DNA of 41,633 bases from a virus, in the IMG/VR virus record IMGVR_UViG_3300036401_000599, positions 1 to 41,633 of that record, one strand, 5' to 3'. A model generated the notes under the pieces. The model had not been told where the DNA came from, made no database searches, and saw nothing but the letters and a program-made list of their open reading frames with translations. Numbering within the stretch: position 1 is the first letter of the stretch; every line of letters starts with the position of its first letter. Made by a program: the position numbers and the translations under genes. Positions 635-41,633 of the stretch are shown one piece after another.

Positions 635-651
635 GTGTTGATGCTTCGCCG
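635..651 (+). promoter_or_regulatory. Late control element, copy 1 (17-bp motif)
   Basis: The motif GTGTTGATGCTTCGCCG ends exactly 23 nt before the GTG start of the protease gene at 675. The identical 17 bp occur at 28245 and 39480 with the same 23-nt gap before another GTG start. There is no purine-rich ribosome-binding site in the 23-nt gap here. The fixed spacing suggests a promoter with transcription starting at or near the start codon (leaderless mRNA), or a translation-control element. Confidence 0.7.
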
Positions 652-674
652 GTGCGGATTCGACGCTCTGTTTC

Positions 675-1823
675 GTGCCTGAGCAGACCCGCCGTTTCGG
701 CGCCGCCAAGAGCCAGCAGCTGACGAAGCCGGCCGACGCGAAGCCGGTGTGGAACGTCATCATGCCCGCTGGCACCTGGCACCGCGACGACTTCGGCGAC
801 GACGGCGTGATGCAAATCGACCGCCCTTTCCTCGAGGCGATGATTGCCAACTGGCAGAAGGTCGGCTCACCCGGTCTGCCCATCAACTACCACCACTGGG
901 GTCAGTCCTCGGACAAGTCGGTCCGCAAGGAAGACAAGGTGGCCGCGGGCTTCATCGAGGATCTGCGCATCAACGCGGACGGGGACCTCGAGGGGCTCAC
1001 CAACTGGAACGACGAAGGCCGCGCCGCCATCCAGGCCGACAAGCTCCGCTATTTCTCGCCCGAGTGGCACGAGAACTGGTTCGACAACACCACGGGCGAG
1101 GACCAGGGCCCCACGCTGTTCGGCGGCGCCGTCCTGAATGACCCTTACTTCCAGTCCATGCCGCGGCTCGCGGCGAGCCGCACCGCAAAGAAAGGCAACG
1201 CCATGTTCGACAAGAAGACCCTCTGCTCGCTGTTCGCGATGGCCGACGACACCTCGGACGACGGCCTCATGGCGCGCATGAAGGAGTGCGCCGACGTCTA
1301 CGCGAAGAAGGCGGCGGCCAAGGACGACGGCGACGGGGACGACGACACGAAGAAGGCCGCTCTCACCGCCGCGCGCGATGCCGCCGACAAGTTCGAGAAG
1401 CAGCTCAAGACGGCGCAGGCGCAGATTGACGAGCTGAAGTCGGCGAACGTGAAGGCCGAGGAGGCGCGCGTCGCCGCCGGCACGAAGGCGCTCACCACGC
1501 AGCTCGAGCAGGAAGGCCGCATCACGGCCAACGAGAAGTCCTTCATCGAGGAGGACGTGAAGGCATACGGCCTCGAGAAGGCAACGGAGCGCTGGGCGAA
1601 GCGGCCTGTCGTAGTGCCGCTGGGAGAGCGCGGCGTGGCAGGCAGCACCGGCCTGGAGTCGCCGGAGGCTGCCCTGCAGAAAATCAACGAGCTCGTCGAC
1701 GAGATGGTGAAGAAGGACGCGAGCATCAAGCGCAGCGACGCGCGCATGCGCATCCTGGCCGCAAACCGCGAGCTGGCGAACGCCGCCGAGAAGCTCGAGC
1801 CCCGCGGCGAGAAGCGCAACTGA
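675..1823 (+). CDS. Phage head maturation protease/scaffold (Mu gpI-like)
   Basis: The 382-aa protein begins with a Mu gpI-type protease domain (about residues 25-165). His73/His74 in INYHHWG and Ser128 in RYFSPEW match the catalytic positions of this family. The second half is a charged, coiled-coil scaffold-like region (about 180-380) rich in Lys, Asp, Glu and Ala. The arrangement matches Mu I/Z, where the full-length product is the prohead protease and the C-terminal part is the scaffold. Start GTG 675 is chosen because it lies 23 nt after the conserved 17-bp element; there is no usual Shine-Dalgarno. It precedes the decoration and capsid genes, as in Mu-like head modules. Confidence 0.88.
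   Translation: MPEQTRRFGAAKSQQLTKPADAKPVWNVIMPAGTWHRDDFGDDGVMQIDRPFLEAMIANWQKVGSPGLPINYHHWGQSSDKSVRKEDKVAAGFIEDLRINADGDLEGLTNWNDEGRAAIQADKLRYFSPEWHENWFDNTTGEDQGPTLFGGAVLNDPYFQSMPRLAASRTAKKGNAMFDKKTLCSLFAMADDTSDDGLMARMKECADVYAKKAAAKDDGDGDDDTKKAALTAARDAADKFEKQLKTAQAQIDELKSANVKAEEARVAAGTKALTTQLEQEGRITANEKSFIEEDVKAYGLEKATERWAKRPVVVPLGERGVAGSTGLESPEAALQKINELVDEMVKKDASIKRSDARMRILAANRELANAAEKLEPRGEKRN
1203..1823 (+). CDS. Internal-start scaffold protein (Mu gpZ-like), 206 aa
   Basis: An in-frame ATG at 1203 (Met177 of the protease) is preceded by AGAAAGG at good spacing, directly at the junction between protease domain and coiled-coil region. In phage Mu the scaffold Z is made from just such an internal start in gene I. 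The product would be the acidic/basic, coiled-coil C-terminal region alone. This is inferred from the start signal and the family precedent. Confidence 0.45.
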   Translation: MFDKKTLCSLFAMADDTSDDGLMARMKECADVYAKKAAAKDDGDGDDDTKKAALTAARDAADKFEKQLKTAQAQIDELKSANVKAEEARVAAGTKALTTQLEQEGRITANEKSFIEEDVKAYGLEKATERWAKRPVVVPLGERGVAGSTGLESPEAALQKINELVDEMVKKDASIKRSDARMRILAANRELANAAEKLEPRGEKRN

Positions 1824-12632: not shown

Positions 12633-13388
12633 TCATGCGGCCTCCGTCAGCGGCAACCCCAGGGCGACGCGCACGGCACGGGCGACGGCGCGACCCATGG
12701 CGAGCGGTACGCCGTTGCCGATGGCGTGCCGCTTCCCTTCGAGCGTCAACGGACAGTCGTCGAGGAAATCGAGCGGCAGTCCCTGTGCGCGGAGCGACAC
12801 AGCGAGCGGGGCGCGGGGTCCTGCGTGCGGCCCATGGCGAACGCCGTCGGCCGTCTTCTTTCGCTTTCCGCTGCCGCCGATCGCCACGGGCGTGGAACGT
12901 CCACCGCCCCCGGCGAGCACGGCTGCTTCTGCTTGTCCATGAAGCGCGAGTTGCTCCACTGCGAGCTTGCGCGGGTAGCCGCTTGAGCCGAACGAGAAAC
13001 GGCGCAGTCGCGAGGTGAGGCCGCCCACCCAGACGTCGCGAATCAATTGTGGATGGACGTAGTAACCGTCCACCTCGGGCACCGGGGCGCCCTCGACGTT
13101 CTCCATGAGGAACCATTCGGGCGCGGCTTCGCGAACCACGCGCTCGAATTCCGGGATGAGATTGCCGTGCTTCTCTCCGGCCTTCGGATTGAGGCGCTTC
13201 ATCACCGAGAAGAGCTGACAGGGCGGGCCGCCGATAATGCCGTCGAAACGCTCCGCGGGCGGGTGGAACTTATGCACGTCCCCCCCCCAGATGAGATCCG
13301 GCCCCCGGACGACGCAGAACCCTTCGGCCTCAAAAGCCGAATCGAGCAGGCCGATGCCGGGGAATAGCGAGAGCACGAGCGGCGTCAT
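12633..13388 (-). CDS. DNA (cytosine-5-)-methyltransferase
   Basis: The 251-aa protein has the ordered C5 methyltransferase motifs: motif I LSLFPGIGLLD (SAM binding; GIG rather than the usual GxGG), motif IV GGPPCQLFS with catalytic Cys57, motif VI MENVEG (Glu96), motif VIII RLRRFSFG and motif X IGNGVPLAMGRAVARAV. The target-recognition region between VIII and X is short. No restriction enzyme is seen, so it probably methylates phage DNA to evade host restriction or modifies regulatory sites. ATGA couples it to the gene upstream. Confidence 0.88.
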   Translation of the reverse strand: MTPLVLSLFPGIGLLDSAFEAEGFCVVRGPDLIWGGDVHKFHPPAERFDGIIGGPPCQLFSVMKRLNPKAGEKHGNLIPEFERVVREAAPEWFLMENVEGAPVPEVDGYYVHPQLIRDVWVGGLTSRLRRFSFGSSGYPRKLAVEQLALHGQAEAAVLAGGGGRSTPVAIGGSGKRKKTADGVRHGPHAGPRAPLAVSLRAQGLPLDFLDDCPLTLEGKRHAIGNGVPLAMGRAVARAVRVALGLPLTEAA

Positions 13389-13591
13389 TCGTCGTCCTCA
13401 TGTCCGGCATCCCACTCGGCGTCATCGAACGCGTCGCAGCGACAGATAGCGTCGCACGGGGCGCCCTGTTGGCAGCCACCACACGGCACGTCCCAGCACT
13501 TCTGACAGGCACGGCAGGTCTTCGCGATCTCGTCGAGCCATCGCTCTTCGGCCGGGTCCTTCATGTCGTCAATTGTCGCCGCGCTGCTCAT
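13385..13591 (-). CDS. Cys-rich mini-protein, 68 aa
   Basis: ATG 13591 follows AGGAG at good spacing. Ten Cys occur in the second half (CRACQKCWDVPCGGCQQG and PCDAICRCDA), ending with an acidic tail (GHEDDE). The pattern is that of a two-zinc small protein. Function unknown; it may be a regulator or protein-interaction factor of the early operon. Confidence 0.58.
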   Translation of the reverse strand: MSSAATIDDMKDPAEERWLDEIAKTCRACQKCWDVPCGGCQQGAPCDAICRCDAFDDAEWDAGHEDDE

Positions 13592-13623
13592 GTCGCTCCT
13601 GTGGTGAGGCGCGGACGCGGCCC

Positions 13624-13743
13624 TCAGAGGCACTTGCCGCACGTCCAACACATGAAGAATCCGTTGCCCTTGAACGGCCCGTAGGCGACGTGGCGCCACG
13701 CGTGGCCTCTGACGCGGCACCAGAATCGACGGAGCGCCTTCAT
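13624..13743 (-). CDS. Cys/His mini-protein, 39 aa
   Basis: ATG 13743 overlaps the stop of the methyltransferase upstream (ATGA). The peptide contains WCRVRGHAW and MCWTCGKCL, i.e. C-x4-H and C-x2-C-x2-C, as in short phage zinc proteins. The overlap and the metal-site pattern support a real gene despite its size. Function unknown. Confidence 0.5.
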   Translation of the reverse strand: MKALRRFWCRVRGHAWRHVAYGPFKGNGFFMCWTCGKCL

Positions 13744-14693
13744 GCCGCCGTCCCTTCGCACCGCGGGCAGCCGGGGCAGTCGGCGACATGGAGCTTCCGT
13801 TTCTTGGACGGATCTTTGAGCACGGGCGCGTCGAACAGCGACTGTTGAGACCACGCCAAGGCCTCGTTCAGGTTCTTCTCGGCGATGCGGAAATAGCTAG
13901 GCTTCAACTCGGCTCCGACGAAACGCCGACCCATCTGAAGCGCCACGTAGCCCTCGCTGCCGATGCCGGCGAAGGGGCTCCACACCAAGTCGTTGCGGTT
14001 GCTCCACAGGCCGATGCAGCGGCGGATGACCTGTAATTGTAATGGACAAATGTGCCGCTCATCCTCGGAGTCCCGAGCCGTCGTGTACTGGAGGGTGTCG
14101 GATGGATCTATGTCCATCCACACCGGGGAGGCCCACTTCTGCCACTCGGCCACCGGGAATTCCTCCTCGGTGTGCGCGACGGGCGAGGTGTTCTGCCCAG
14201 GCGCCCGCATCGTCACCACGTAGTCGGCGATGCCCTGGCGACTCATGGCGGAGTCTTTCTTGATCTGCTTCCACAACAGCCCCAGCGCTTTCGTGCGCTG
14301 CATGGCCGTTACGGGGTCTTTCCATATGGTGACGGCAGAATGGTACGTGAAGCCGTGCCGCTGGTAGGTGCGGATGATTTCGCCGCGGAAGTCAGTGAGC
14401 CCGATGACGCCATCCCGCTCCTTCGAGGTCGGTAAGTCCATGCAGTGGATGGAGACGTTGCGGCCCGGCTTCATCACGCGCGCCATCTGCTCGATGAGGT
14501 AGCCGTAGTGCTCGAAGAATTCGGCGTGCGTGGCGCTGTTGCCCATGTCCTCGTCGGCGCCGCTGTAAACGTAAAGGCTGGCGAACGGCGGCGAGTGGAC
14601 GCTCATGTCGACGCTGTGCCGCTCCATCTTGGTCGCCACCTTCACGGTGTCGCCCAGCCACAGGTCCCAACCCTCTCCATGCGAGTGTTTCAC
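13740..14693 (-). CDS. Adenine/cytosine-N4/N6 DNA methyltransferase
   Basis: GTG 14693 overlaps the helicase stop (GTGA) and has GGGAGG upstream; an upstream ATG at 14708 is possible. The catalytic motif IV is SPPF (residues 34-37 in HSPPFASLY), and SAM motif I is near the end as FAGIGSEGYVALQMG, the order of beta-class (N4-C or N6-A) enzymes. SPPF/Y is the more usual form in N4-cytosine enzymes. It ends with a Cys/His tail (ADCPGCPRCEG). It pairs with the SNF2-type helicase upstream, as in some phage and island modification cassettes. Confidence 0.85.
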   Translation of the reverse strand: MKHSHGEGWDLWLGDTVKVATKMERHSVDMSVHSPPFASLYVYSGADEDMGNSATHAEFFEHYGYLIEQMARVMKPGRNVSIHCMDLPTSKERDGVIGLTDFRGEIIRTYQRHGFTYHSAVTIWKDPVTAMQRTKALGLLWKQIKKDSAMSRQGIADYVVTMRAPGQNTSPVAHTEEEFPVAEWQKWASPVWMDIDPSDTLQYTTARDSEDERHICPLQLQVIRRCIGLWSNRNDLVWSPFAGIGSEGYVALQMGRRFVGAELKPSYFRIAEKNLNEALAWSQQSLFDAPVLKDPSKKRKLHVADCPGCPRCEGTAA

Positions 14694-16021
14694 TTGAGTG
14701 CCTCCCATGTTGCTGCCGTTAGTTCTGCCGCCATCTCTTCCGCCATGGCGCCCTTGCGTTTGATGTTCGCGACCACCACGCCTTCGAGCTCGCTCGACAC
14801 CACGTGCACGTCGACGGGGTGGCGCTGCCCGAATCGCCAGCACCGACGCACCGCCTGGTAGTAGGACTCGAAGGAGTCAGAGAGGCCGACGAAGGCCATC
14901 TGTCGACAGTGTTGGAAATTGAGTCCCCATCCCGCGATGCTTGCTTTTGTGACGAGGACTCGTGCCTCGCCGGTGGCGAAGGCCTGCAGCGACTGCTCCT
15001 TGTCTTCGATGTCGTCTGACCCGCGGATCTCCAGCGCGCCGTCGATGGCGGAGGCGAGTGCGCCCGACTCTGCATTCAAGTCGCACCACACCACCCACGG
15101 CCCAGGCGTCTCGTTGACGAGCTTCGCCGTTAGCGCCACGCGAGCGTCGATGCTGGACTTGCGCGCTTCTCTCCGTTGCGTCAGCGACAGCGAGCCGTTG
15201 GCGAACAGGTCCCCGGTGAGCGACTGAATGGCCGACTGCTCCGACGGCACAACCTGCTCGATGATGTTGAGCGGCGGCAGTCGGTAGCGCTCGCCGTCCT
15301 CCGCGAAGCCGATGTCCGTCGGGCTCACGACACCCAATGCCCACGAGGCCACCCAGCGCCAGAACGGTAGCCGCGCATGGCCCTTCAACCGCCACAGCGC
15401 CGTGTCGCCGCCGTCGTGAATGAAGTACTCGGCCAGCATCTGGGCGCGGGTGGAGACGCCCAGGAATTCCGCATGCGTCCCGAGTTCCATGAAGTCGTTG
15501 GGGGCCGGCGTGGCGGTGGCGGCCAGTCGGAACCGGAAGCCCGAGAAGGTCTCGGTGAGCTGCGCCGTCGTCTTGGCGCTGTAGTTCTTGATGCAGCTCG
15601 ACTCGTCCAGCACGACACCCACGAAGTCGCTGGGGTTGAAGTGGTGGAGCCGCTCGTAGTTGGTGATGACGATGTTGCCGTCGGCCATCTGCGAGGCGTT
15701 GCGGCAATTGAGGGCGCGGATCAGCCCGAGGCGGTGCGCTTCTTTTTCGGTCTGCTGCGCCACTGCCAGCGGAGCAAGCACGAGGACTCGACCCTTCGAT
15801 TCCGTCGCCACCTCGTCCGCCCATGCCAGTTGCATGCGCGTCTTGCCTAGTCCCGTCGATGCGAAGAGCGCCGAGGAGCCTCGCTCGAGACACTTCGCCA
15901 CCAGCGCGCGCTGGAAGGGCATCAGCCATTCGCGATGCTGGCGCGGAGAGAAGCCGACGGCGCGGTGGGCTCGCCTCTTGGCGGCAAGGAACGTCTCGTA
16001 TGATGTGGCGGCGCTGCTCAA
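14690..16021 (-). CDS. SNF2-type superfamily 2 helicase/ATPase
   Basis: The 443-aa protein has SF2 motifs: I STGLGKT, II VLDESS (DExx), III AATATPAPND and VI QAVRRCWRFGQRHPVDVHVV, a layout typical of SNF2/DEAD-like phage helicases that remodel DNA-protein complexes. TTG 16021 follows GAGGAG at spacing 7 and is preferred; upstream TTG codons would add an unrelated-looking N-terminus. It is directly coupled to the N4/N6 methyltransferase, suggesting that the two act together on the same DNA. Confidence 0.83.
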   Translation of the reverse strand: MSSAATSYETFLAAKRRAHRAVGFSPRQHREWLMPFQRALVAKCLERGSSALFASTGLGKTRMQLAWADEVATESKGRVLVLAPLAVAQQTEKEAHRLGLIRALNCRNASQMADGNIVITNYERLHHFNPSDFVGVVLDESSCIKNYSAKTTAQLTETFSGFRFRLAATATPAPNDFMELGTHAEFLGVSTRAQMLAEYFIHDGGDTALWRLKGHARLPFWRWVASWALGVVSPTDIGFAEDGERYRLPPLNIIEQVVPSEQSAIQSLTGDLFANGSLSLTQRREARKSSIDARVALTAKLVNETPGPWVVWCDLNAESGALASAIDGALEIRGSDDIEDKEQSLQAFATGEARVLVTKASIAGWGLNFQHCRQMAFVGLSDSFESYYQAVRRCWRFGQRHPVDVHVVSSELEGVVVANIKRKGAMAEEMAAELTAATWEALK

Positions 16022-16111
16022 GTCAGTGCTCCTCGTGGACTGCGTAGAAAAACGGGGCCGCGCCAACCGCGGGGGCAGGGCGGCGCGGACCCGTGAGCCG
16101 ATGCTCTGGCG

Positions 16112-19646: not shown

Positions 19647-19750
19647 GTCTGCCTCCGCTGTGCTGCGTGTTTCGACGGGGTGCCTCCGACTGCGCACCGC
19701 TAGACCCGCCCTGAACCGGCCCTGCCGCCTCCGCCGTGTTGCTGACTCGT

Positions 19751-19779
19751 AATATGGTACCATTTATGGTCCGTGTCAA
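19751..19779 (-). promoter_or_regulatory. Leftward early promoter
   Basis: On the minus strand a perfect -35 hexamer TTGACA (19774-19779) is followed, 17-19 bp later, by CATATT/TATTAC (19751-19756 region) as the -10. Transcription would start near 19745 and lead into the gene at 19646 after about 100 nt of leader. The -10 lies within the palindrome ATGGTACCAT, as expected for a repressed promoter. Confidence 0.6.
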
Positions 19780-19814
19780 GGGAGCACTTGAAAAGGTACC
19801 GATTTAGAGGTACA
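19754..19814. promoter_or_regulatory. Operator cluster centred on GGTACC
   Basis: ATGGTACCAT (19754-19763) is a perfect 10-bp palindrome; further GGTAC-cored sites are GGTACC at 19795-19800 and GGTACA at 19809-19814. Their position around the divergent promoter region suggests operators for a phage repressor that controls the lysis-lysogeny switch. The repressor is not proved; the flanking gene at 19824 is the nearest candidate. Confidence 0.5.
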
Positions 19815-19823
19815 CAAGATGGT

Positions 19824-20183
19824 ATGGACGTGCGCGGCCATCTACTCCCCAGCTACCCTGCTGAAATGCTCGACCTGCAGCGAGAGCTTGAGGCGGAAGA
19901 GGAGAAGACCGCGCCGGACGACATTCGGCTGCGTGGTCCCATCCCACTCAAGGAGGCAATGGAGAGAATCGCCGAACTTCAGGCGAGGGCCCTTAAGGAC
20001 TTCCTGAAGTACAGGCGAGGCATGAGCGCCAATCGGCTCTGGCTCATGGTTGCGCAGAACTTCCGCGTCGCATTCATCGCCAGGTTTGGCCCGCTCCCTC
20101 CAAGGGGCGACGAGTTGGCGGAGCGTCAGTACGCGGAGCGCGTGGCCTCGGGCATCACGGACGATCAGCGCAAGCGGAAGTAG
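19824..20183 (+). CDS. Candidate immunity/repressor-region protein, 119 aa
   Basis: The gene lies just across the operators from the leftward promoter, where temperate phages usually encode their repressor. The protein is helical with an acidic helix start (EMLDLQRELEAEEEKTAPDD), a middle helix pair (AMERIAELQARALKDFLKYR, NRLWLMVAQNFRVAFIARFG), and a basic end. No helix-turn-helix is certain. ATG 19824 is chosen; an upstream GTG at 19773 would read through two of the operator sites. The AT content is higher than in neighbouring modules. Confidence 0.55.
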   Translation: MDVRGHLLPSYPAEMLDLQRELEAEEEKTAPDDIRLRGPIPLKEAMERIAELQARALKDFLKYRRGMSANRLWLMVAQNFRVAFIARFGPLPPRGDELAERQYAERVASGITDDQRKRK

Positions 20184-20743: not shown

Positions 20744-20838
20744 CGCTTGCGTGGGTGTTTCTCGCCGGGCTCGGTGTCGGCTTCGTCGGTACCTGCGTCG
20801 CTCTTGCAGTGCTGGTGCGGATGGGAGGGCGGACGTGA
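20737..20838 (+). CDS. Membrane micro-protein, 33 aa
   Basis: GTG 20737 lies after GAGG; the peptide MLTLAWVFLAGLGVGFVGTC then VALAVLVRMGGRT is one membrane helix with a positively charged end. Its stop overlaps the GTG of the HTH gene (GTGA). Such small membrane proteins are common in immunity regions, where some block superinfection; the role here is unknown. Confidence 0.45.
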   Translation: MLTLAWVFLAGLGVGFVGTCVALAVLVRMGGRT

Positions 20839-21161
20839 GCGCGGAGATTCTCGCCGAGCTGAGGCGCATCAATGCGCGGCTCGACGCCATCACGACGTCG
20901 GCCGACCTCATCGTCACGCGCGAGGTGGCGGCGAAGCAACTCAAGGTCTCGGTGCGCCAACTCCAGCGCCTCATTGCGGCCGGTCGCCTCGCCTCGCTCC
21001 CGTCTGGAATCGCCCGGGCCGAGCTCGAGCGGTACGCGCGCACGCCCCCGACGCCGCTTCCGAAGATGCTCAACAAGGCCCAGCGCGAGCGCACCGCCTC
21101 CGAAGAGGCCGAGCGGGGCAGGGCGCTGCTCAAGGCACTGCGGAGGCCCCGAGCGCGATGA
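20835..21161 (+). CDS. Excisionase-like helix-turn-helix protein, 108 aa
   Basis: Residues about 25-70 form a MerR/excisionase-type winged helix-turn-helix: LIVTREVAAKQLKVSVRQLQ then RLIAAGRLASLP and a short wing, ending with AELERYART. Proteins of this kind bend DNA and direct excision, or act as regulators. The integrase gene lies 0.7 kb downstream on the other strand, which makes a recombination-directionality role likely. GTG 20835 overlaps the previous stop (GTGA). Confidence 0.68.
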   Translation: MSAEILAELRRINARLDAITTSADLIVTREVAAKQLKVSVRQLQRLIAAGRLASLPSGIARAELERYARTPPTPLPKMLNKAQRERTASEEAERGRALLKALRRPRAR

Positions 21162-21877: not shown

Positions 21878-22939
21878 CTACTTCAACACACGAGTCTTGA
21901 TGGTGCCGCGCGGCACACTGTGCCGGACGTAGTGCTTGCGCAGCATCTTCTCGGACTCGTGGTTGAAGGCGCGGGCGACTTCGCGAATGTCCTGCCCGTC
22001 CTCGATGGCCCACGTGCCGACGGTGTGCCGCATGTCGCCGAGGTGGAGGCGCTCGTCCTCAGGCACGCCCGCAGCGTCGTTGGCAAGTCGCATCAGCTGT
22101 GCGAGTCGGCCGCGGCTCAGCATCCAACCCTGCTCTCGAATGCGTCGCGCGGCGGCGATGTGTTCGGGGCGGTTGAGGCCCGACACGGCCCACTCCTTCC
22201 GCTTGTGGAAGGTGACGAGTACGACCTTGTGCTTGCGCGTGGGGTCCCTCCGAACCTCCCCGCCGCTGGCGAAGCGAATCGCCTCGGACAAATGCCAGCC
22301 CGTCCCCGCCAAGAGCTGCAGTATGTCGACCACGTCCGCGCGGAGGTGCTTGTAGACGGCGAGCGCCGTCTTGAATGGCACGTCGCGGGGTCCGCTCGTC
22401 TCCTTTGCGGACTTCCGTTGGGGCATGCGCACGTCAGGCATCGGGTCTTCATGATGCTTCAGCACGCCGCGCTCTTTGCGCAGCCAGGTGAAGAAGCCCT
22501 TCAGGGCGGTGATGCGCGCGGGCCGGCTCGTCGTCCAGCGGGCGAGGGTGTCTTTCACGGTGATGGAGTTGACGCGGCGCAGGTCCAGATTCTCGAAGGA
22601 CTCGAGCCAGTCCATGAGCAGGTTGGCCGATGTGTGCGCCCACTCATGCGTGTTGCCCCGCTCCTCGAGTTGCCAAGTGCGGTAGTCGAGAATCAGGTCC
22701 ACGGTCATCTTCAGCCGCTCGACGCCACCGGGGACGTAGGCTCCGGGGTCGGCCTCAAACTTCCGCAGCTCGCGCATCGCGGCGTCTTCGGTGTGGCATC
22801 GCGTGCTCACCTTGAAGAGCGCGCCGCGGATGCGTTTCTCAATGACGTAGACGGGTCGCCCCGCCTTCGTCTTCCGGATGAAGCCGCCCAACCAGTGCGG
22901 CCTAGCAGTCTCCACGGCGTCGACTCGGGCTCTTTCCAC
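21878..22939 (-). CDS. int: Tyrosine recombinase integrase with atypical active site
   Basis: The 353-aa protein has an N-terminal SAM-like core-binding region (about 75-170) and a catalytic domain with box 1 LLAGTGWHLSEAIRF, box 2 HLGDMRHTVGTW and the nucleophile region FNHESEKMLRKHYVRH (Tyr337). Usual integrases read TG-x-R and H-x-x-R; here position 216 is His and position 301 is Gly, while Arg304, His327 and Tyr337 are kept. GTG 22939 has AGGAGA upstream. The tRNA-Sec-like attP lies directly beside its start. Confidence 0.9.
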   Translation of the reverse strand: MERARVDAVETARPHWLGGFIRKTKAGRPVYVIEKRIRGALFKVSTRCHTEDAAMRELRKFEADPGAYVPGGVERLKMTVDLILDYRTWQLEERGNTHEWAHTSANLLMDWLESFENLDLRRVNSITVKDTLARWTTSRPARITALKGFFTWLRKERGVLKHHEDPMPDVRMPQRKSAKETSGPRDVPFKTALAVYKHLRADVVDILQLLAGTGWHLSEAIRFASGGEVRRDPTRKHKVVLVTFHKRKEWAVSGLNRPEHIAAARRIREQGWMLSRGRLAQLMRLANDAAGVPEDERLHLGDMRHTVGTWAIEDGQDIREVARAFNHESEKMLRKHYVRHSVPRGTIKTRVLK

Positions 22940-22953: not shown

Positions 22954-23331
22954 ATGACGGACGTTACATTGCACGGGCCTTCAAAACCCGTGTCACCCTT
23001 CGCGAGAAGGGTGGGGAGGGTTCGATTCCCTTGCCCTACCGAGGAAGAGCCGCGACAGCAAGCGACGTCAGAAGACAGTAGCGGTCAACGCCGAGTCGCC
23101 ACGCCGAAGGGTCGTGCGGCCCGTCGCTACTCGCTGAAGCTTGCGCTCGCCGACGTTCGCCGGGCGATGGGCTCCAGCAGCAAAGCCGACATCCGCTACG
23201 GGCGCAACCCCGACGTCGTGCGCTTCATCGAGACCGCGAAGGCGGCGCTGCGGTGCGCCGAGCACGCGCTTCGGATGGCGACTCTGCGCGCGCTCGACAA
23301 GACGGGCCGATCCAGGGCGAGGGCGGCATGA
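22954..23331 (+). CDS. Protein spanning attP, 125 aa, start uncertain
   Basis: From ATG 22954 the frame reads straight through the tRNA-like attP into a clearly helical C-terminus (YSLKLALADVRRAMGSSSKA, DVVRFIETAKAALRCAEHAL). The N-terminal 30 residues are therefore tRNA-derived, and integration would cut the gene. The real start is more likely near 23100-23170 (ATG 23167 is one choice). The stop overlaps the next ATG (ATGA). Function unknown. Confidence 0.45.
   Translation: MTDVTLHGPSKPVSPFARRVGRVRFPCPTEEEPRQQATSEDSSGQRRVATPKGRAARRYSLKLALADVRRAMGSSSKADIRYGRNPDVVRFIETAKAALRCAEHALRMATLRALDKTGRSRARAA
22972..23041 (+). other. attP: 3' part of a selenocysteine tRNA (selC) gene
   Basis: The segment contains the anticodon arm with loop CTTCAAA (anticodon TCA, 22981-22983), a long variable arm (CACCCTT/AAGGGTG), the T arm (GAGGG-TTCGATT-CCCTT), an 8-nt acceptor strand GCCCTACC and discriminator G. 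A TCA anticodon, long extra arm, 8-bp acceptor half and G73 are together the mark of tRNA-Sec. The matching 5' half (GGTAGGGC plus D arm) is absent upstream, so this is not a tRNA gene but the part restored by integration. It sits next to int. Confidence 0.82.
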
Positions 23332-23540
23332 AACCCTGGCACAACTGCCCGAGGTGTCCGCACTGCGGCTCGGCGACAGGCCTCCCCCGCTCCAAGGCCG
23401 ACTGGAACCATCGCGCGAACGACGGTGACAGGCTTGTGTGTCCGGCGTGCGGCAAGGGCTGGGTGGGCACCCTTGCAGAGGTGACGCAGGCCACGGCCGC
23501 GCAGCTCGCGTGGGAAGCGCACGAGCGGGGTGAACTGTGA
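23328..23540 (+). CDS. Zinc-ribbon protein, 70 aa
   Basis: The protein MKPWHNCPRCPHCGSATGLP contains two close Cys pairs, and VCPACGKGW gives another; it is a compact zinc ribbon followed by a helix. ATG 23328 and the stop both overlap neighbours (ATGA, GTGA). Function unknown; DNA-associated by context. Confidence 0.58.
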   Translation: MKPWHNCPRCPHCGSATGLPRSKADWNHRANDGDRLVCPACGKGWVGTLAEVTQATAAQLAWEAHERGEL

Positions 23541-23842
23541 CCGAGTCCGTCCCGCCGTTGCCGCCCATCAGGCCCACATTCACGAACCTCATCACCGAGG
23601 TGGCCATCGACGTCAGGCTGACGAAACTCACGACTCGGCGGGTACTCGAGACATTCTTCGCGCAGCTCGCAGAGGCGACCTGGGCGACTGGCCGCGTGTA
23701 CGTGCCTGGCCTGGGTCTGTTCGCCGTACGGAGCCGCCGGCGGCGTCGCATCACCAACCCACAGACGAACCGCCCGTTGATGCTGCCGGGTCACCGGGCG
23801 GTCTACGCGCGCGTCGCGAAGAGCTGGAGGCGCCAGCCGTGA
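23537..23842 (+). CDS. HU/IHF-family DNA-binding protein, 101 aa
   Basis: The sequence LTKLTTRRVLETFFAQLAEA followed by GRVYVPGLGLFAVRSRRRRR and ITNPQTNRPLMLPGHRAVYA matches the HU fold: a helical body, the PGLGxF turn and a beta-arm with an NPQT-type tip. It should bend DNA, fitting a role in replication initiation or in integration/excision beside attP. GTG 23537 overlaps the preceding stop. Confidence 0.75.
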   Translation: MTESVPPLPPIRPTFTNLITEVAIDVRLTKLTTRRVLETFFAQLAEATWATGRVYVPGLGLFAVRSRRRRRITNPQTNRPLMLPGHRAVYARVAKSWRRQP

Positions 23843-23899
23843 GCTCCACCACTCTCGACGTCATGAGGTTCAACGCGCAGTGAGCCCCGGAGGGGGAAC

Positions 23900-24736
23900 G
23901 TGAGCCATATTGCATTTGAGTTGGACGCCCTGCCGTTGGTGCCGAAGGTGGCTCGGAGCGCCGGCATTCAGGAGGCGGTCGTTGGATGGGGTCTCACGCA
24001 GATGTGGGAGTGGTGCTGGCGCGAGAAGACAGACAAGGTCACCACCAACCACCTGCGCGGCTTCTTCGGCTCCGAGCTCGGAGCCATTCTCGTCGACTTC
24101 GGCTTCCTTGAGGCCATCGGCTCAAGCGTCTGGCGGGTGCGTGGCGCACAGCGTTATCTGCGCATCCAAGAGGGTCGCGAGAGGGGCGGGAAAGCGGCCG
24201 CTGCGGCCGGAAACCTGAAGCGCGGCCGCGCTGCTCCTGCTGGTCCGAATGCTGGGGCATCTCTCCAGCTGCCTTCCAGCACCTCTCCAGCACCTCTCCA
24301 GCTCGACTCCAGGCTTTCAGCGACTAGCGACGAGCGACTAGCGACTAGCGACAAGCGAAATACAGGGCCCGCGCCAAAACCGCGGGCGGTTAACCCTCGA
24401 CTTGGACCGCTCATTGGACGGCTCAAGAAAAGCTACCACGACCTCGTAGGCAAGCCGCTCGACCCGACGGACCAAGACGTCGCCGCGCTGAAAACGCTGC
24501 TCGGAAGGGGCGATGACGACGAGATCGACCGGCGCTGGCGCAAGGGCCTGTCCGCCAGTCAGTTCGAGACGAAGTGTGCAACGTTTCTAAAGCTGCTGCA
24601 GGTCTGGCCGGAACTCGCCATCGAACGCGCGGCATCGACGGGTCCGCCCAGGGGCGCGGCCACCGCCGCTGACACCGACTGGAGCAACTACCGCGAGGGC
24701 GACACCGCGCGCGAACTCTTTGGAGAAAAGCCATGA
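23900..24736 (+). CDS. Replication initiator with embedded iterons, 278 aa
   Basis: GTG 23900 follows GGAGGGGG. The N-terminal 95 residues look like a phage replisome-organiser winged helix (AGIQEAVVGWGLTQMWEWC, VTTNHLRGFFGSELGAIL, GFLEAIGSSVWRVRG). A low-complexity linker encoded by tandem DNA repeats follows, then a C-terminal helical domain (LKKSYHDLVGKPLDPTDQDV) that probably contacts the helicase loader encoded next. The layout copies lambda O, where the origin iterons lie inside the initiator gene. Confidence 0.68.
   Translation: MSHIAFELDALPLVPKVARSAGIQEAVVGWGLTQMWEWCWREKTDKVTTNHLRGFFGSELGAILVDFGFLEAIGSSVWRVRGAQRYLRIQEGRERGGKAAAAAGNLKRGRAAPAGPNAGASLQLPSSTSPAPLQLDSRLSATSDERLATSDKRNTGPAPKPRAVNPRLGPLIGRLKKSYHDLVGKPLDPTDQDVAALKTLLGRGDDDEIDRRWRKGLSASQFETKCATFLKLLQVWPELAIERAASTGPPRGAATAADTDWSNYREGDTARELFGEKP
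24261..24315 (+). repeat. Five 11-bp iterons (origin block 1)
   Basis: Five direct 11-mers follow one another without gaps: CTCTCCAGCTG, CCTTCCAGCAC, CTCTCCAGCAC, CTCTCCAGCTC and GACTCCAGGCT. The core CTCCAGC is kept in most copies. They lie inside the initiator gene and probably are its binding sites. Confidence 0.65.
24319..24360 (+). repeat. Six 7-bp iterons (origin block 2)
   Basis: Six gapless heptamers: AGCGACT, AGCGACG, AGCGACT, AGCGACT, AGCGACA, AGCGAAA. They begin 3 bp after the 11-bp repeats and are followed by an A-rich spot and a GC-rich inverted segment (CCGCG...CGCGG, about 24372-24390). The combination of two iteron types in the initiator gene is the expected form of a theta origin. 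Confidence 0.65.
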
Positions 24737-25440
24737 GCCTGCCACCGCACCTGATTGAGAAGATTCGCCGCATTGCCGAGAAGTCCGAGATGGCGGCGGC
24801 GGGCGGCCCATACAAGCCGGAGCCCACAGTAGACCCCGGCACCGCGATGACGAAGGTGCGCCGGGCCGGCGCCCCGGTCGGCTTGCTACAGTCAGTTCGG
24901 GCACTCGTGATGAAAACGCTCAGGCCGTCGCGAGCTGCTGAGGCAGCGGCCTCGTGGTGGGACGGCATGCGAGGCGAGCGGTCGATGCTGGCGCTGATGG
25001 GACCGACGGGGCTCGGCAAGAGCACCGCGGCGGCATGGGCGGCATACCTCGCCGCGCGCGAGTACCCATGGAATTCCCGCGCTGGCGGTGGCTCAAGCTG
25101 GGAGCCGATTGTCTGGCTCAACGCCGAGGACGTCGCGCTGCTGCAAGGCTGGTTCAATGACGGCAAGCGCCAATACGAGGAGTGTTCGCGCGCATGGTTG
25201 CTTGTCATCGACGACGCGGGACATGAGGCGTCAAGGCCAGCCATCGCGGCGCTGACAGATTTGCTGCAGCGGCGAATGGACGGACGCAAGGCGACGGTGT
25301 TGTCCACCAACCTTCGCGGCGCCGGCTTCGCGACCCGTTACGGGGCACCAGTCGTCGATCGCATGAAGGTCGGCGCATTCATCCCGGAGCTTGGACAGTA
25401 CGAATCGCTGCGTGGGCGCGAGCCGGGGGAGGACGGGTGA
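24733..25440 (+). CDS. DnaC-like helicase loader/AAA+ ATPase
   Basis: The 235-aa protein has Walker A GPTGLGKST (residues 90-98), Walker B LLVIDDAG (Asp160/161) and sensor-like VLSTNLRG, as in DnaC/IstB AAA+ loaders, which place the host replicative helicase on phage origins. It directly follows the initiator with an ATGA overlap. No phage helicase of the DnaB type is seen, so the host DnaB is probably used. Confidence 0.85.
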   Translation: MSLPPHLIEKIRRIAEKSEMAAAGGPYKPEPTVDPGTAMTKVRRAGAPVGLLQSVRALVMKTLRPSRAAEAAASWWDGMRGERSMLALMGPTGLGKSTAAAWAAYLAAREYPWNSRAGGGSSWEPIVWLNAEDVALLQGWFNDGKRQYEECSRAWLLVIDDAGHEASRPAIAALTDLLQRRMDGRKATVLSTNLRGAGFATRYGAPVVDRMKVGAFIPELGQYESLRGREPGEDG

Positions 25441-25661
25441 CCATGGCCAAGAGCGATGCGGTGAACCACCCGGCGCACTACCACCCGGGGACGTACGAGG
25501 CGATCAACGTCATCGAGGCGTGGGGACTCGGCCTTCACCTCGGCAACGCCGTGAAGTACATCTCGCGGGCCGGCCGCAAGGGCGACGTGCTTGAGGACCT
25601 CAAGAAGGCGCGCTGGTACCTCGACCGGCTCATTAAGCAGCTTGAGCAGGTGCAGACGTGA
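25437..25661 (+). CDS. DUF3310 protein, 74 aa
   Basis: The sequence SDAVNHPAHYHPGTYEAINV, then EAWGLGLHLGNAVKYISRAG and DLKKARWYLDRLI match the DUF3310 family of small phage proteins, sometimes annotated as nucleotide-kinase-related although the function is unsettled. GTG 25437 overlaps the loader stop (GTGA); ATG 25443 is an alternative. Confidence 0.83.
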   Translation: MTMAKSDAVNHPAHYHPGTYEAINVIEAWGLGLHLGNAVKYISRAGRKGDVLEDLKKARWYLDRLIKQLEQVQT

Positions 25662-25975
25662 AGCGCTCCCGCTCGTTCCTGCGGTACCGCCGCGGCTCGC
25701 GCGATGCGAACCACGTCGCCATTCGCGACGGCCTGCGCAATCTCGGACACGAGGTCATCGACCTGGCCCCAGTCGGAGATGGCGTGGCAGACCTCGAGGT
25801 ATTCCGGTTCCTCGGCGCCGGCATCTGGAGCCTGAAGCCGACGTTCCTCGAGCTCAAGGTCGGCAAGGGGAAGTTGCGCGAGTCGCAACTGGCATGGCGG
25901 GAGCGCGCGGCTTCGCGCGGGATTCGGGTGCGCACCGTCACAACGCTGGCCGAGGCGCTGGAGGCGCTACTGTGA
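25658..25975 (+). CDS. VRR-NUC-like endonuclease, 105 aa
   Basis: The short protein has the VRR-NUC (PD-(D/E)XK) core: Asp in VADLEVFRFLG, then FLELKVGKGKLRESQLAW with the ExK motif and the family Gln, and a C-terminal helix (LAEALEALL). Such enzymes resolve branched DNA or nick at packaging/recombination steps. ATG 25658 overlaps the previous stop. Confidence 0.7.
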   Translation: MKRSRSFLRYRRGSRDANHVAIRDGLRNLGHEVIDLAPVGDGVADLEVFRFLGAGIWSLKPTFLELKVGKGKLRESQLAWRERAASRGIRVRTVTTLAEALEALL

Positions 25976-26310
25976 CTCGCCCCGAGCTCCTCGACGCCAT
26001 CCGCCGCGCCGCGGACCAGCCCCTCGAGGGATTTCCGCGCCGCCGAAAGGGCATGGACGTCGAGACGGCCGAGCGGATTCTGGCGGTGGTGCTGGACGCC
26101 ATCGCGCCGCCCATCATCAAGCGCGTGGAGCGGGACTGGAGCGGCAACGACGTCGCAGACATGCTCCGGGAGTGGCGCCAGACGCACGACGTTGCCACAG
26201 GACGCGCGAACGGCTCGCATGTGGTGCCGCGGGCCACCTTGCGCACGAAAGGCCTCACCGGCCACGATTATGGCTGCATGTGCGCCGACTGCACTGGAGT
26301 CCTGCTTTGA
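25972..26310 (+). CDS. Unknown early protein, 112 aa
   Basis: GTG 25972 overlaps the nuclease stop. The N-terminal helices (RPELLDAIRRAADQP, ETAERILAVVLDAIAPPI) are followed by an Asp/Trp-rich middle and a C-terminal Cys pair (GCMCADCTG). No domain recognised. Confidence 0.5.
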   Translation: MTRPELLDAIRRAADQPLEGFPRRRKGMDVETAERILAVVLDAIAPPIIKRVERDWSGNDVADMLREWRQTHDVATGRANGSHVVPRATLRTKGLTGHDYGCMCADCTGVLL

Positions 26311-26573
26311 GCCGCGGCGTCGACGGGGAGCGCTCCGAGGACTGGGAGCTGCGGCGCGTCGAGCGGGCGAAGTGCGTGCTGCGCCAACTCCAGGCCGTGC
26401 TGACGTACACGTACGAGCGCGTGCACGTAGCGGAGCAGGCCCGTCGGCTGTCGATGTCAAGGGACCGGGTACGATGGATGCAGCGGGTGCTCGGCCTACG
26501 CAGTGGCCGCATTAAGTCGGGCTGGCTGTCGACGGCTGTCGGCGCCTCGAGCCGGGGCATGGAGGCGGCATGA
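26307..26573 (+). CDS. Small helix-turn-helix protein, 88 aa
   Basis: TTG 26307 overlaps the previous stop (TTGA), and its own stop overlaps the terminase small-subunit start (ATGA). The stretch VHVAEQARRLSMSRDRVRWM followed by QRVLGLRSGRIKSGW is helix-turn-helix-like. A small HTH gene just before the terminase is a common place for late-gene activators; it is a candidate reader of the 17-bp element. Confidence 0.5.
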   Translation: MSRGVDGERSEDWELRRVERAKCVLRQLQAVLTYTYERVHVAEQARRLSMSRDRVRWMQRVLGLRSGRIKSGWLSTAVGASSRGMEAA

Positions 26574-26923
26574 AGGCCCCACAGAAACCTCAGATCAGGC
26601 GCCGCAAGAACGGGACGTTCCCAAAGGGCACGTCGGGCAACCCGGGCGGTCGACCCAAGGAAGAGAAGGAAATTATCGAGGCCCTGCGCCGCCGCGGCGA
26701 CGAGCTTGTAGCTGCGCTGTTCCGCGCCGCGTTGCGGAAGAAGCCGGACGTGCGCGCCATCACGGAGGCCTTCAACCGCGCCTACGGCAAGGCCCGACAA
26801 CTGGTTGAGCTGAGCGGCAAGGACGGCGGGCCCCTCGAAATCGACTACTCGAAGCTCTCCGTCGAGCAGCTCGAGGAACTGAGGTCGATTCTCGAAGATG
26901 CTGCCGCGCCTACGACTCACTGA
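26570..26923 (+). CDS. Terminase small subunit-like (DUF5681-type), 117 aa
   Basis: The protein starts basic and has the signature FPKGTSGNPGGRPKEEKE of the DUF5681 family, often found just before TerL, then a helical region (LRRRGDELVAALFRAALRKK) that may form the oligomer. It overlaps the large-subunit start at 26898 by 26 bp. The DNA-binding/packaging role is inferred from this pairing. Confidence 0.7.
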   Translation: MKAPQKPQIRRRKNGTFPKGTSGNPGGRPKEEKEIIEALRRRGDELVAALFRAALRKKPDVRAITEAFNRAYGKARQLVELSGKDGGPLEIDYSKLSVEQLEELRSILEDAAAPTTH

Positions 26924-28244
26924 CGTCGAGCGCGAGCTCGCTCGGCGCAGCCTGCTGGCCTTCGTCCCCTGGGCGACGCCGGCGTACGGCCAGCCGAAAC
27001 ACCTGCGCGCCGTCGTCGAGCCTTTCGAGCGCGCGGTGAGAGGCGAGGCGCTGCGCATGTGCTTCTGCGCGCCGCCGCAACACGGCAAGTCCGACACCCT
27101 GTCGCACGGCGTCGCATGGGGGCTCTGGCAGGACCCAGCGCTGCGCTTCGGCTACGCGACGTATGGCGACGAGCTCGTGCGCGACAAGTCGAAGCTGGCC
27201 CGCCGCATCGTCGTCGACAGGCTGGGCATGCCGCTCGAGTCCGACAGGTTGGACCAGTGGGACACGCGCGAGGGCGGCGGTTTCATCGGCACGTCGGTGC
27301 GCGGCGCATTGACGGGCAAGCGCGTCAACATCGCCATCGTCGATGACCCGTACAAGAACCGGCCGGAGGCCGAGAGCCCGACGACGCGCCGCACGGTGCG
27401 CGACTTCATGAACGACGTCGTCGAGACGCGCCTCACCCCTAACGGCTCGTGCTTCGTCTTCATGGCGCGGTGGCATCCGGAGGACCTCATCGCCGAGTTG
27501 GTGCGCGACGGCTGGAGCTTTGTCCGCCTGGCTGCCCTCGATGACGAGACGGGCCTGCCGCTCTGGCCGGAGCGCTGGACGCGCGAGGCGCTCGAGGAGA
27601 AGCGCTCCCGCGTCGGTGACTTCACCTGGGAATCGCTGTACCAGGGCCGCCCACGCCCGCGTGGCGCCGTCGTCTTCGGCCCGCCCACGACATATACGGA
27701 GCTGCCGAAGGTGTACCGCAGCGCCGGAGGCCTCGACTTGTCGTACGCCGCGAAGTCGTCGGCGCACTGGAGCATCGCCGTGCGACTGCTGGTCGCCGGC
27801 GGCAAACTCTACGTGGCCGACGTGCTCCGGCGAAAGGTGGCGGTGCCGCAGTTCCGACTGGAGCTACACGCCATTCACAGCCACGCGCCAGCGACGCGCT
27901 GGCGCTGGTACACGTCATCGACAGAGGTGGGCCTCGGGCAGATGTTCAACGAGCCGCCGCACGCGGTGCCGGTAGTGCCGGTGCTGGCCCGGGCCGACAA
28001 GCTGACGCGGGCCCTGCCTTGCGCGGCCGCGTGGAACCGCGGCGACGTGCTGGTGCCGCAGGCGGCGCCCTGGCTCGATGAATTCCTCGCGGTGGTGACC
28101 AACTTCACGGGCACGGGCGGCGAGGACGACGACGTCGACGCGTTGGTGGGTGCGTACGACGAGGCGACAATGGGCAACGGCCGCGTCAGTAGCGAGCCGG
28201 CCGAGCCGACGAGGCTGGGCGCGTGGCACGCAACTGAGCTCTGA
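26898..28244 (+). CDS. terL: Terminase large subunit
   Basis: The 448-aa protein has the ATPase Walker A CAPPQHGKSD (58-66), Walker B IVDDPY (Asp149/150) and coupling-motif region, then the RNase H-like nuclease with GGLDLSYAAKSSAHWSIAVR and a C-terminal acidic site (EDDDVDALVGAYDEA). It is the packaging motor. The frame is complete and ends 4 nt before the control element at 28245-28261. Confidence 0.9.
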   Translation: MLPRLRLTDVERELARRSLLAFVPWATPAYGQPKHLRAVVEPFERAVRGEALRMCFCAPPQHGKSDTLSHGVAWGLWQDPALRFGYATYGDELVRDKSKLARRIVVDRLGMPLESDRLDQWDTREGGGFIGTSVRGALTGKRVNIAIVDDPYKNRPEAESPTTRRTVRDFMNDVVETRLTPNGSCFVFMARWHPEDLIAELVRDGWSFVRLAALDDETGLPLWPERWTREALEEKRSRVGDFTWESLYQGRPRPRGAVVFGPPTTYTELPKVYRSAGGLDLSYAAKSSAHWSIAVRLLVAGGKLYVADVLRRKVAVPQFRLELHAIHSHAPATRWRWYTSSTEVGLGQMFNEPPHAVPVVPVLARADKLTRALPCAAAWNRGDVLVPQAAPWLDEFLAVVTNFTGTGGEDDDVDALVGAYDEATMGNGRVSSEPAEPTRLGAWHATEL

Positions 28245-28261
28245 GTGTTGATGCTTCGCCG
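28245..28261 (+). promoter_or_regulatory. Late control element, copy 2 (17-bp motif)
   Basis: GTGTTGATGCTTCGCCG starts directly after the terL stop and ends 23 nt before GTG 28285. It is identical to the copies at 635 and 39480. It would start the tail-gene unit. Confidence 0.7.
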
Positions 28262-28284
28262 CTCGGGGCCGAAGTCTTGGCCAC

Positions 28285-28392
28285 GTGAGCGCACACGCCA
28301 AGCTGGCCGCCACCGTGCTTGCTGCCCTCGGCCTCAGCGCCCTGGGCACGTGGCTTAACCTGCTCTGGCTGCGCTGGGCGGTGACGCCGTGA
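28285..28392 (+). CDS. Membrane mini-protein, 35 aa
   Basis: The peptide MSAHAKLAATVLAALGLSAL then GTWLNLLWLRWAVTP is a single hydrophobic helix. GTG 28285 lies 23 nt after the 17-bp element and has no Shine-Dalgarno. Its stop overlaps the next gene's GTG. It leads the tail unit; its role is unknown, and it may matter mainly for translational coupling. Confidence 0.5.
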   Translation: MSAHAKLAATVLAALGLSALGTWLNLLWLRWAVTP

Positions 28393-29892: not shown

Positions 29893-29893
29893 C

Positions 29894-31126: not shown

Positions 31127-31142
31127 AAGTCCCGGAGGACAC

Positions 31143-31445: not shown

Positions 31446-31447
31446 CC

Positions 31448-34072: not shown

Positions 34073-34073
34073 C

Positions 34074-37357: not shown

Positions 37358-37360
37358 ACC

Positions 37361-38329: not shown

Positions 38330-38332
38330 GCG

Positions 38333-39479: not shown

Positions 39480-39496
39480 GTGTTGATGCTTCGCCG
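39480..39496 (+). promoter_or_regulatory. Late control element, copy 3 (17-bp motif)
   Basis: Identical to copies at 635 and 28245 and ending 23 nt before the portal GTG at 39520. Here the motif also sits just 3-45 bp from the divergent membrane-protein start (39476 or 39434), so the two directions may share control. Confidence 0.7.
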
Positions 39497-39519
39497 TGCT
39501 GCCTCTCACCCTGTAGGGC

Positions 39520-41633
39520 GTGGGCGCTCTCGACTGGTTCTGGCGGTTCGGCACGAGGCCTGCCCCGACTCCGCCAGCGCTGCCCGCCGGCGACTCACCC
39601 GAGCTGACGCAGCTGAGGGCGGCCATCGACAGCAACAAGCTCCCGCCGTCGGCGCCGATGACGCTGCTGGCGCCGTCGACCTCCGAGAAGGGCATCACGG
39701 GCACCGCCAACTTCTACGGCGACCTGCTCACCGAGTCGAACGCCAAGCTGATTCACGAGCAGGCCTTCGGCGCGCCCGGCGCGCGCACCTGGGGCGAGTG
39801 GGAAAAGATTCTCATGACGGACCCCGCCGTGCACATGGGTGTGGAATTCGTCGTGGCCCAACTGCGCGACGCGCTGGTGCAGGTCGAGCCGGCCGACGAA
39901 GAGTTCATGCCGGACCAGGACCTGGCCCAGCGCCAGGCCGACTTTGTCCGGTGGAACCTCTTCGAGGCGCTCGAGCCCGGATGGAGCGACCTCATCCAGC
40001 AGTGCGTGCGCGGCACGCTCTCTGCCGGCTTCTGCCTGCACGAGCTCGTCGCGAAGCAGGTGAAGCATCCGTTGCTACAGAACGGCACGGGCTATCGGCT
40101 CGCAAAGATGTCCGAGCGCCTGCCGGTGTCGATTCACCCGTTAGGCTGGCTCGAGAAGGACGGGGACCTCGACCGCGTCCGCCAGCAGGGCTACGACAAC
40201 AGCGGCGCCTCGAAGTGGCAGACGCCCGAGCTGCCGGCCGACGTGCTGCAGCTCATCAGCTGGAACCGCACGGGCAACAACTACCTGGGACACAGCGCGT
40301 TCCGCTCTGTCTGGTACCTCTGCAAAATCCGCGAGCAGCTCGCGAAGCTCGTCGGCATCACTCTGACGCGCGAGGGTGCCGGCGTGCCCGTCGCGGTGAC
40401 GACGGACCCGAACAAGGAGCTTTCACCGGAGCAACGCAAGGACACCGAGACGCTGCTCGCCAACCTCGTGTTCCATGAAAACGCCAGCGTCGTGATGCCG
40501 GCGGCCTGGGACCTGAAGTGGGTGTACTCGCCGGGCGCCAACAAGGGCCACGTCGTCGACGCCTACAACAACCTCGGGCTCGTCATCCTCCAGCAGGTGC
40601 AGGCGCAGCAGCTCGGCCTCGGCGTGCACAACACTGGCTCGCGCGCGGTGGGCCAGACGCACGACACGTCGAGCGACAACTTTGTCTTAGGGGTCGCGGC
40701 CACGCTCGAGGGTGCCTTCAACGGCGTCGGAGACAGGCGCTACCAGGGCACCATTCCAAAGCTGGTGCGGTGGGATTTCGGCGAGCAGGCGGCATACCCG
40801 AAACTCACCATTGGCCTGAAGCAGGCGAAGCTTCAGCCCGACTTATTGGCCACGGCGCTGGCCGCGATGCGCACGGCGAAGTGCATCACGGTGTGGCGCT
40901 GCACCGACGAGAACACGCTTCGGGAAAAGCTCGGCTTCGAGCGCATCGATGATGACGAGTTCGACGCCCAGCAGGAGAAGGCCGACAAGCTCACCGAGCA
41001 GCTGACGAAGCTCCCGCCGCCAGGTGCGCCGCCTCTCCCGCCTGGCGCACCGCCGCACCAGTTACCGCCAGGCGCACCGAAATCGCCGGCACCGCCCGAC
41101 GAGAAGAAGGCGCGACGGGCGTCGGGCCAGGCCTTCGAGCCGCGGCGACCGCTGCGTCCGGCCGAGATGCATTGCGCATGGCAGGAGATGGACGACTTCC
41201 TCGACAAGTCGAAGGAGTCGTTCGAGCGCGGCGCGAAGCCCATCGTCGTCGCGATGCTGACTCGCGCGCTGCCCGACGTGAAGTCGGCGCTCGCCGACAG
41301 GGACCCGGGTGAGCTCGCCGACGTCCCGCTGGACACGAAGCCGCTCGAGGACTTCATCGGCACGTGGCTCAAGGGCGTCAGTGCCGAGGGCTACCGCCAG
41401 GTGGCCAGCGAGTTTCGCAAGCAGGCGGCAGCCGCGCGTCCGCACATGGGCGCCTCGTCCGACGAGGAGAAGGACACCGAGCCGTCGCCCAGCGACGAGC
41501 CGTCGTCGTCCGAGGACTCGCAGATGCTGCTCGAGGCCCAGCAGCGACAGCTCGCGCGGCGGCTCGAGGCGCGCATCCGGGCCCAGCTCGAGGACGAGGG
41601 CATCGACGTCATCCGCACGGGCGGCGACGCGCA
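39520..41633 (+). CDS. Portal protein (DUF935/Mu gp29-like) fused to MuF; runs off window end
   Basis: GTG 39520 follows the 17-bp element by 23 nt. The N-terminal 490 residues match DUF935 portals: ELTQLRAAIDSNKLPPSAPM, EWEKILMTDPAVHMGVEFVV, IQQCVRGTLSAGFCLHELVA, FNGVGDRRYQGTIPKLV. A proline-rich hinge (PPGAP repeated, about residues 499-525) leads to a helical region and then the MuF domain that continues at 1-461. No stop occurs in the frame up to the window end. The total of 815 residues makes it an unusually large portal. Confidence 0.85.
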   Translation, partial: MGALDWFWRFGTRPAPTPPALPAGDSPELTQLRAAIDSNKLPPSAPMTLLAPSTSEKGITGTANFYGDLLTESNAKLIHEQAFGAPGARTWGEWEKILMTDPAVHMGVEFVVAQLRDALVQVEPADEEFMPDQDLAQRQADFVRWNLFEALEPGWSDLIQQCVRGTLSAGFCLHELVAKQVKHPLLQNGTGYRLAKMSERLPVSIHPLGWLEKDGDLDRVRQQGYDNSGASKWQTPELPADVLQLISWNRTGNNYLGHSAFRSVWYLCKIREQLAKLVGITLTREGAGVPVAVTTDPNKELSPEQRKDTETLLANLVFHENASVVMPAAWDLKWVYSPGANKGHVVDAYNNLGLVILQQVQAQQLGLGVHNTGSRAVGQTHDTSSDNFVLGVAATLEGAFNGVGDRRYQGTIPKLVRWDFGEQAAYPKLTIGLKQAKLQPDLLATALAAMRTAKCITVWRCTDENTLREKLGFERIDDDEFDAQQEKADKLTEQLTKLPPPGAPPLPPGAPPHQLPPGAPKSPAPPDEKKARRASGQAFEPRRPLRPAEMHCAWQEMDDFLDKSKESFERGAKPIVVAMLTRALPDVKSALADRDPGELADVPLDTKPLEDFIGTWLKGVSAEGYRQVASEFRKQAAAARPHMGASSDEEKDTEPSPSDEPSSSEDSQMLLEAQQRQLARRLEARIRAQLEDEGIDVIRTGGDA
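41507..41633 (+). repeat. 127-bp terminal overlap (equals 1-127)
   Basis: Bases 41507-41633 are identical to 1-127. The overlap lies inside the portal-MuF coding frame and keeps the frame open. Its exact 127-bp length is what an assembler leaves when closing a circle with a 127-base k-mer, so the unique genome is 41,506 bp. Confidence 0.85.

Follow-up and report, generated by a model that had tools for sequence, protein, structure and literature searches.

Three copies of a 17-bp element at a fixed distance from GTG starts point to candidate leaderless late promoters in an uncultivated temperate phage

The genome of an uncultivated, temperate phage carries three identical copies of a 17-bp element, GTGTTGATGCTTCGCCG, each located 23 nt upstream of a GTG codon that opens a unit of virion genes. 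Shine-Dalgarno pairing is weak at all three start codons, and the intervals between element and start contain an A/T pair in the register of a -10 hexamer together with a pyrimidine-purine (Y-R) initiator step at the GTG. The three copies are probably phage-specific leaderless late promoters, at which an activator would assist the host RNA polymerase; promoter function, a transcription start at the GTG, late timing and the activator itself are what we infer from sequence. The analysis covered the whole virus record, a stretch of 41,633 nt hereafter referred to as the window.

Results

The repeated element and its spacing

The element is present in the window as three exact copies, all of them on the plus strand, and the sequence TTGATG within each provides a -35-like core.

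635..651, plus strand: 17-bp element, copy 1, exact match; -35-like core TTGATG at 638-643
28245..28261, plus strand: 17-bp element, copy 2, exact match, its first base adjoining the TerL stop codon (28242-28244); TTGATG at 28248-28253
39480..39496, plus strand: 17-bp element, copy 3, exact match; TTGATG at 39483-39488

Allowing up to three mismatches did not yield a fourth copy in the window, in agreement with the original prediction, which had reported three identical 17-mers and no further copy. The element is real and non-random. None of 100 dinucleotide shuffles produced three matches, even with up to three mismatches allowed, and GTGTTGATGCTTCGCCG is the only k-mer of at least 14 nt with three copies in the genome. 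In 60 genomes generated with an order-5 Markov model, the longest three-copy k-mer measured 12-14 nt in 58 cases, 15 nt once and 16 nt once, and never reached 17 nt. The distance from the element to the GTG is 23 nt at all three copies (GTG at 675, 28285 and 39520), and the gaps retain as invariant columns C(-1), T(-8), C(-9) and A(-12), both as first described; taken alone, these four columns are not significant, being matched by about 15% of random triples. Copy 2 follows the upstream stop codon at 0 nt, and four bases separate copy 1 from the stop codon that precedes it.

Genome layout and the three virion units

The first and last 127 nt of the window are identical (1-127 and 41507-41633), indicating a circular or circularly permuted genome of 41,506 bp. 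All three GTGs head virion structural units, and their first genes are the following.

675..1823, plus strand: Mu I-like capsid maturation protease, GTG start (Pfam Mu-like_Pro 9e-19, phrog_328 2e-23)
28285..28392, plus strand: 35-aa hydrophobic ORF with a GTG start and an overlap with the neck/tail-completion gene (28389)
39520..41633 and on to 461 over the circular junction, plus strand: portal-MuF fusion of 815 aa, GTG start (Portal_Mu 2e-15; Phage_Mu_F 1.5e-5, below its curated cut-off)

The protease is followed by a decoration-like protein (1850) and the MCP (2285). The neck/tail unit headed by the 35-aa ORF, in which the gene at 28389 matches phrog_26, extends to about 38857. In the third unit (39520 to 630), which also includes a 61-aa ORF, the portal and MuF-like protein form a single 815-aa ORF (39520-41506 plus 1-461). 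The labels originally attached to the units (tail, portal and head/lysis) were partly wrong, as the GTG at 675 leads into capsid protease and MCP genes, that at 28285 into neck/tail genes and that at 39520 into the portal-MuF gene.

Elsewhere in the genome, leftward genes at 12633-16066 encode a C5-cytosine methylase, an N4/N6 DNA methylase and a helicase. The palindrome ATGGTACCAT and related GTACC repeats at 19735-19830, upstream of a small plus-strand ORF (19773), possibly constitute a repressor operator region. An integrase gene occupies 21878-22939 on the minus strand, and the adjoining segment (22957-23032) resembles the 3' half of a selenocysteine tRNA, with a CTTCAAA anticodon loop, a long variable arm, a T arm and a GCCCTACC-G end; this segment is a probable attP in selC. 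ARAGORN found no tRNA, and the tRNA-Sec-like attP has no exact match in GTDB genomes, so the host was not identified by this route. An HU/IHF-like DNA-binding protein is encoded at 23537-23842 (Pfam Bac_DNA_binding 2e-13).

Start codons and Shine-Dalgarno pairing

A TGA within the 17-mer is in frame with the GTG at each of the three sites, making each GTG the first usable start in its frame, and at site 3 an additional in-frame TAG 6 nt upstream closes an in-frame GTG that lies within the gap. Anti-Shine-Dalgarno pairing at the three GTGs amounts to -5.2, -3.3 and +0.8 kcal/mol, the three weakest values in a hand-picked set of 30 gene starts, for which the chance is 1 in 4060. When ORFs were listed mechanically, the two long GTG genes again ranked toward the weak end, there beside mostly non-genic overlapping ORFs, and neighbouring genes in these units have clear GAAAGGA or GGAGG sites. 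The earlier observation that the three starts have no good ribosome-binding site is borne out by this comparison, and the lack of a Shine-Dalgarno sequence at the start codon, a feature expected of leaderless sigma70-type promoters, is seen at each of them.

Register of a putative promoter

Taking the G of the GTG as +1, the 17-bp block spans -40 to -24 and TTGATG lies at -37 to -32. An nAnnCT hexamer is found 18 nt later, at -13 to -8, and is followed by 7 nt and the GTG.

662..667, plus strand: GACGCT, -10-like hexamer of copy 1, with A at position 2 and T at position 6, 7 nt before the GTG
28272..28277, plus strand: AAGTCT, -10-like hexamer of copy 2, from sequence and the register test
39507..39512, plus strand: CACCCT, -10-like hexamer of copy 3, from sequence and the register test

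For a transcription start at the GTG, A(-12) and T(-8) would fall in the register of A-11 and T-7, the two strongest bases of the -10 element, and the C(-1)/G(+1) step present at all three sites is a Y-R initiator. In random GTG-preceding triples, an A...T pair at -10-hexamer spacing arises with a frequency of 2.5e-4 over 7 registers, and of 2.8e-5 when an invariant pyrimidine at -1 is added; since the registers were defined post hoc, these values are support and not proof. A scan of both strands of the genome for TTGA-N20-nAnnnT-N6-8-RTG returns the three sites only. The hexamers match the -10 consensus poorly (2-3/6), and the sites lack the TTGACA/TATAAT match of housekeeping sigma70 promoters: a consensus sigma70 scan of 23000-41600 gave no promoter at sites 2 and 3, and by inspection the -10 of site 1 reads GACGCT. 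A leaderless sigma70-type arrangement, nAnnCT-N7-GTG with C at -1, is present at all three sites, in a register chosen post hoc. The suggestion of TTGA as a -35-like core unaccompanied by TATAAT fits these results.

Candidate readers of the element

Searches of the genome for known regulators gave no match to sigma region 2 or 4 (PF04542, PF08281), to the Mor/C activator (PF08765), to MotA (MotCF) or to ArpU-type activators (TIGR01637), and Ogr/Delta returned below-cut-off matches only. In a search for a T7-type RNA polymerase, PF00940 matched neither this genome nor the control genomes. Two small genes have been considered as regulators.

23328..23540, plus strand: zinc-ribbon protein of 70 aa, alternative candidate regulator (Zn_Ribbon_YjdM 2e-6, Ogr_Delta E 0.05, both below cut-off)
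26307..26573, plus strand: 88-aa ORF just before TerS, candidate late regulator of the original prediction, unsupported

The product of the gene at 26307 has no Pfam or PHROG family match, and its weak single-sequence AlphaFold2 model (pLDDT 71, pTM 0.39) has no PDB match; neither families, nor structure, nor relatives lent support to its proposed role as activator. The zinc-ribbon gene is located in the early/middle region. The reader may be one of the small DNA-binding or zinc-ribbon proteins encoded at 20835-21161, 23328 and 26307 (20-26.6 kb), the support for which consists of position or fold type.

Distribution

One other IMG/VR contig carries the element, and its 99.99% identity identifies it as the same phage, so that it offers no independent conservation. 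Scans of IMG/VR with the protease, portal, terminase and 26307 proteins recovered the same phage only, and the search for related phages with the 17-mer and a GTG at 23 nt, proposed as a check on the original prediction, likewise led back to this phage. Other IMG/VR matches to the 17-mer, or to a 14-mer plus RTG, were dismissed as chance; those inspected fall inside open reading frames, none of them standing ahead of a gene start. Profile searches identified about 50 loci with terminases mostly 30-43% identical, which have almost no other protein in common with the window; a recognisable MCP is present in one of these loci only (L018), and the element or a comparable repeat in none. Across all phage loci retrieved, which total 1.97 Mb, the window alone contains a k-mer of at least 11 nt with three copies at a constant spacing from a downstream ATG/GTG; since many of these loci are partial, this result says more about how specific the test is than about whether related phages lack such repeats. 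Within the collections searched, the element is unique to this phage.

Discussion

In the leaderless promoter model, the three 17-bp copies would serve as the recognition block, upstream at -40 to -24, of a single, coordinately controlled class of late promoters. A phage-coded DNA-binding activator would contact this block, which overlaps the -35 region, and aid the host RNA polymerase, unless the polymerase carries a special sigma factor instead. The polymerase would then open the weak -10 (nAnnCT, 18 nt past TTGATG) and initiate at the G of the GTG, so that the capsid-protease, neck/tail and portal-MuF mRNAs would begin at the start codon or within 1-2 bases of it and be translated without a Shine-Dalgarno sequence. 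A transcription start that coincides with the start codon makes a fixed 23-nt gap the expected outcome across three unrelated genes, and the combination of a poor -10 and a long identical block suggests a phage activator working with the host polymerase. All three element-linked starts are GTG, and for leaderless initiation in mycobacteria an ATG or GTG at the 5' end of the mRNA is both required and enough (PMC4633059). The original proposal of a leaderless late promoter hence gains partial support, from the weak Shine-Dalgarno pairing, the A/T register, the GTG initiator and the lack of a consensus sigma70 promoter at both sites covered by the scan, within an evidence base of three sites in one phage, whose host may or may not tolerate leaderless mRNA. 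As to an activator or special sigma factor as the reader, the poor -10 and the long block favour it, and the failure to detect a phage sigma factor or known late activator counts against it.

The same failure, together with the poor housekeeping promoter match, would be accounted for if a host alternative sigma factor and the host RNA polymerase read the leaderless promoter without a phage activator, which is a variant of the preferred explanation and not an exclusive rival. We consider this variant unlikely, as the -10 is weak, the identical 17 bp reach -24 and are longer than sigma contact at -35 alone predicts, and the timing of late gene expression generally depends on a phage factor. It is distinctly unlikely that the mRNAs are instead leadered, starting upstream, with the 17-mer acting as a 5'-leader RNA element required 23 nt before the start codon. 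A protein-binding site, a ribosome-recruiting signal or a translational-control signal of this kind would likewise keep its distance from the start codon constant and go with weak Shine-Dalgarno pairing, and the asymmetry of the 17-mer sequence is in keeping with it. RNA folding, however, is not unusual (z -0.55, +1.24 and -0.61), complementarity to E. coli 16S rRNA does not exceed that of shuffles (60 of 100 match the longest run and 23 of 100 the energy), at two sites the copy begins 0-4 nt past the preceding stop codon, and the A/T and Y-R promoter register is left unexplained. That register, the constant 23 nt to the GTG and the single orientation are equally unaccounted for if the copies are an operator or other DNA-protein site near promoters and not themselves a promoter element, be it bound by a repressor or a nucleoid protein or serving as a packaging or recombination/module-boundary sequence. 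Phages do carry repeated operator or boundary sequences, and the copies are located at module boundaries, but the 17-mer lacks dyad symmetry and we hold this alternative to be very unlikely. Lastly, the 17-mer could be written as coding for a conserved leader peptide (V/M-L-M-L-R-R), a reading that is dismissed because third codon positions are identical too and the constraint hence acts on nucleic acid.

Several known systems share features with the leaderless promoters proposed here. In Mu (Mor/C) and P2 (Ogr), late transcription of several virion operons relies on one phage activator and the host RNA polymerase, as we propose for this phage. The head proteins of this phage are Mu-like, yet Mor has no match in its genome. 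The P2 late-activator site lies far upstream, whereas the element described here lacks a dyad and occupies -40 to -24, and Ogr matches remain below cut-off. In T4 middle promoters, MotA occupies a -30 box that replaces the -35, located 12+/-1 bp before the -10 (PMC2988021). Here too a phage-specific block near -30 would take the place of the -35, with a sigma -10 downstream, and T4 middle promoters are the functionally closest system. As a curiosity, TGCTT at -33 to -29 lies at the right distance, 13 bp before the -10-like hexamer, but its flanks match the MotA box only in part, in a comparison made post hoc. T4 middle promoters, however, need an excellent -10 and about 10 conserved bp, whereas the -10 is poor and 17 bp are conserved in this phage, which is unrelated to T4; with no MotA encoded and a poor -10, the three sites do not belong to the MotA class.

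Short asymmetric repeats tied to gene starts have also been described in cluster K mycobacteriophages as SAS/ESAS (PMC3203893). The SAS, GGGATAGGAGCCC, resembles this element in being a short asymmetric repeat at gene starts of a phage genome, but it occurs in 11-19 copies, whereas the present element has a different sequence, three copies and a distance of 23 nt; by our own reading of the two sequences, the SAS contains a Shine-Dalgarno-like AGGAG and GTGTTGATGCTTCGCCG does not. In the leaderless promoters of mycobacteria and of Thermus phages, the -10 sets the transcription start at ATG/GTG and the Shine-Dalgarno sequence is dispensable, as proposed here. To our knowledge, these promoters lack an identical 17-bp upstream block. 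The middle/late promoters of P23-45 are of the extended -10 class (PMC7403470).

Late promoters that depend on a dedicated activator have already been described in phages. It is conceivable, if somewhat doubtful, that the three sites represent a distinct late-promoter class, in which a putative phage factor reads the 17-bp block, overlapping the -35, and starts each of the virion operons as a leaderless mRNA beginning with GTG. Were this the case, the late switch would be coupled to Shine-Dalgarno-independent translation, and a phage in which every virion operon starts leaderless at GTG would provide a compact case of a joint switch in transcription and Shine-Dalgarno-free translation. The 40-nt block would offer a sharp bait for finding the activator, and the rule of a repeat at a fixed distance from start codons may provide a simple route to late promoters in uncultivated phages.
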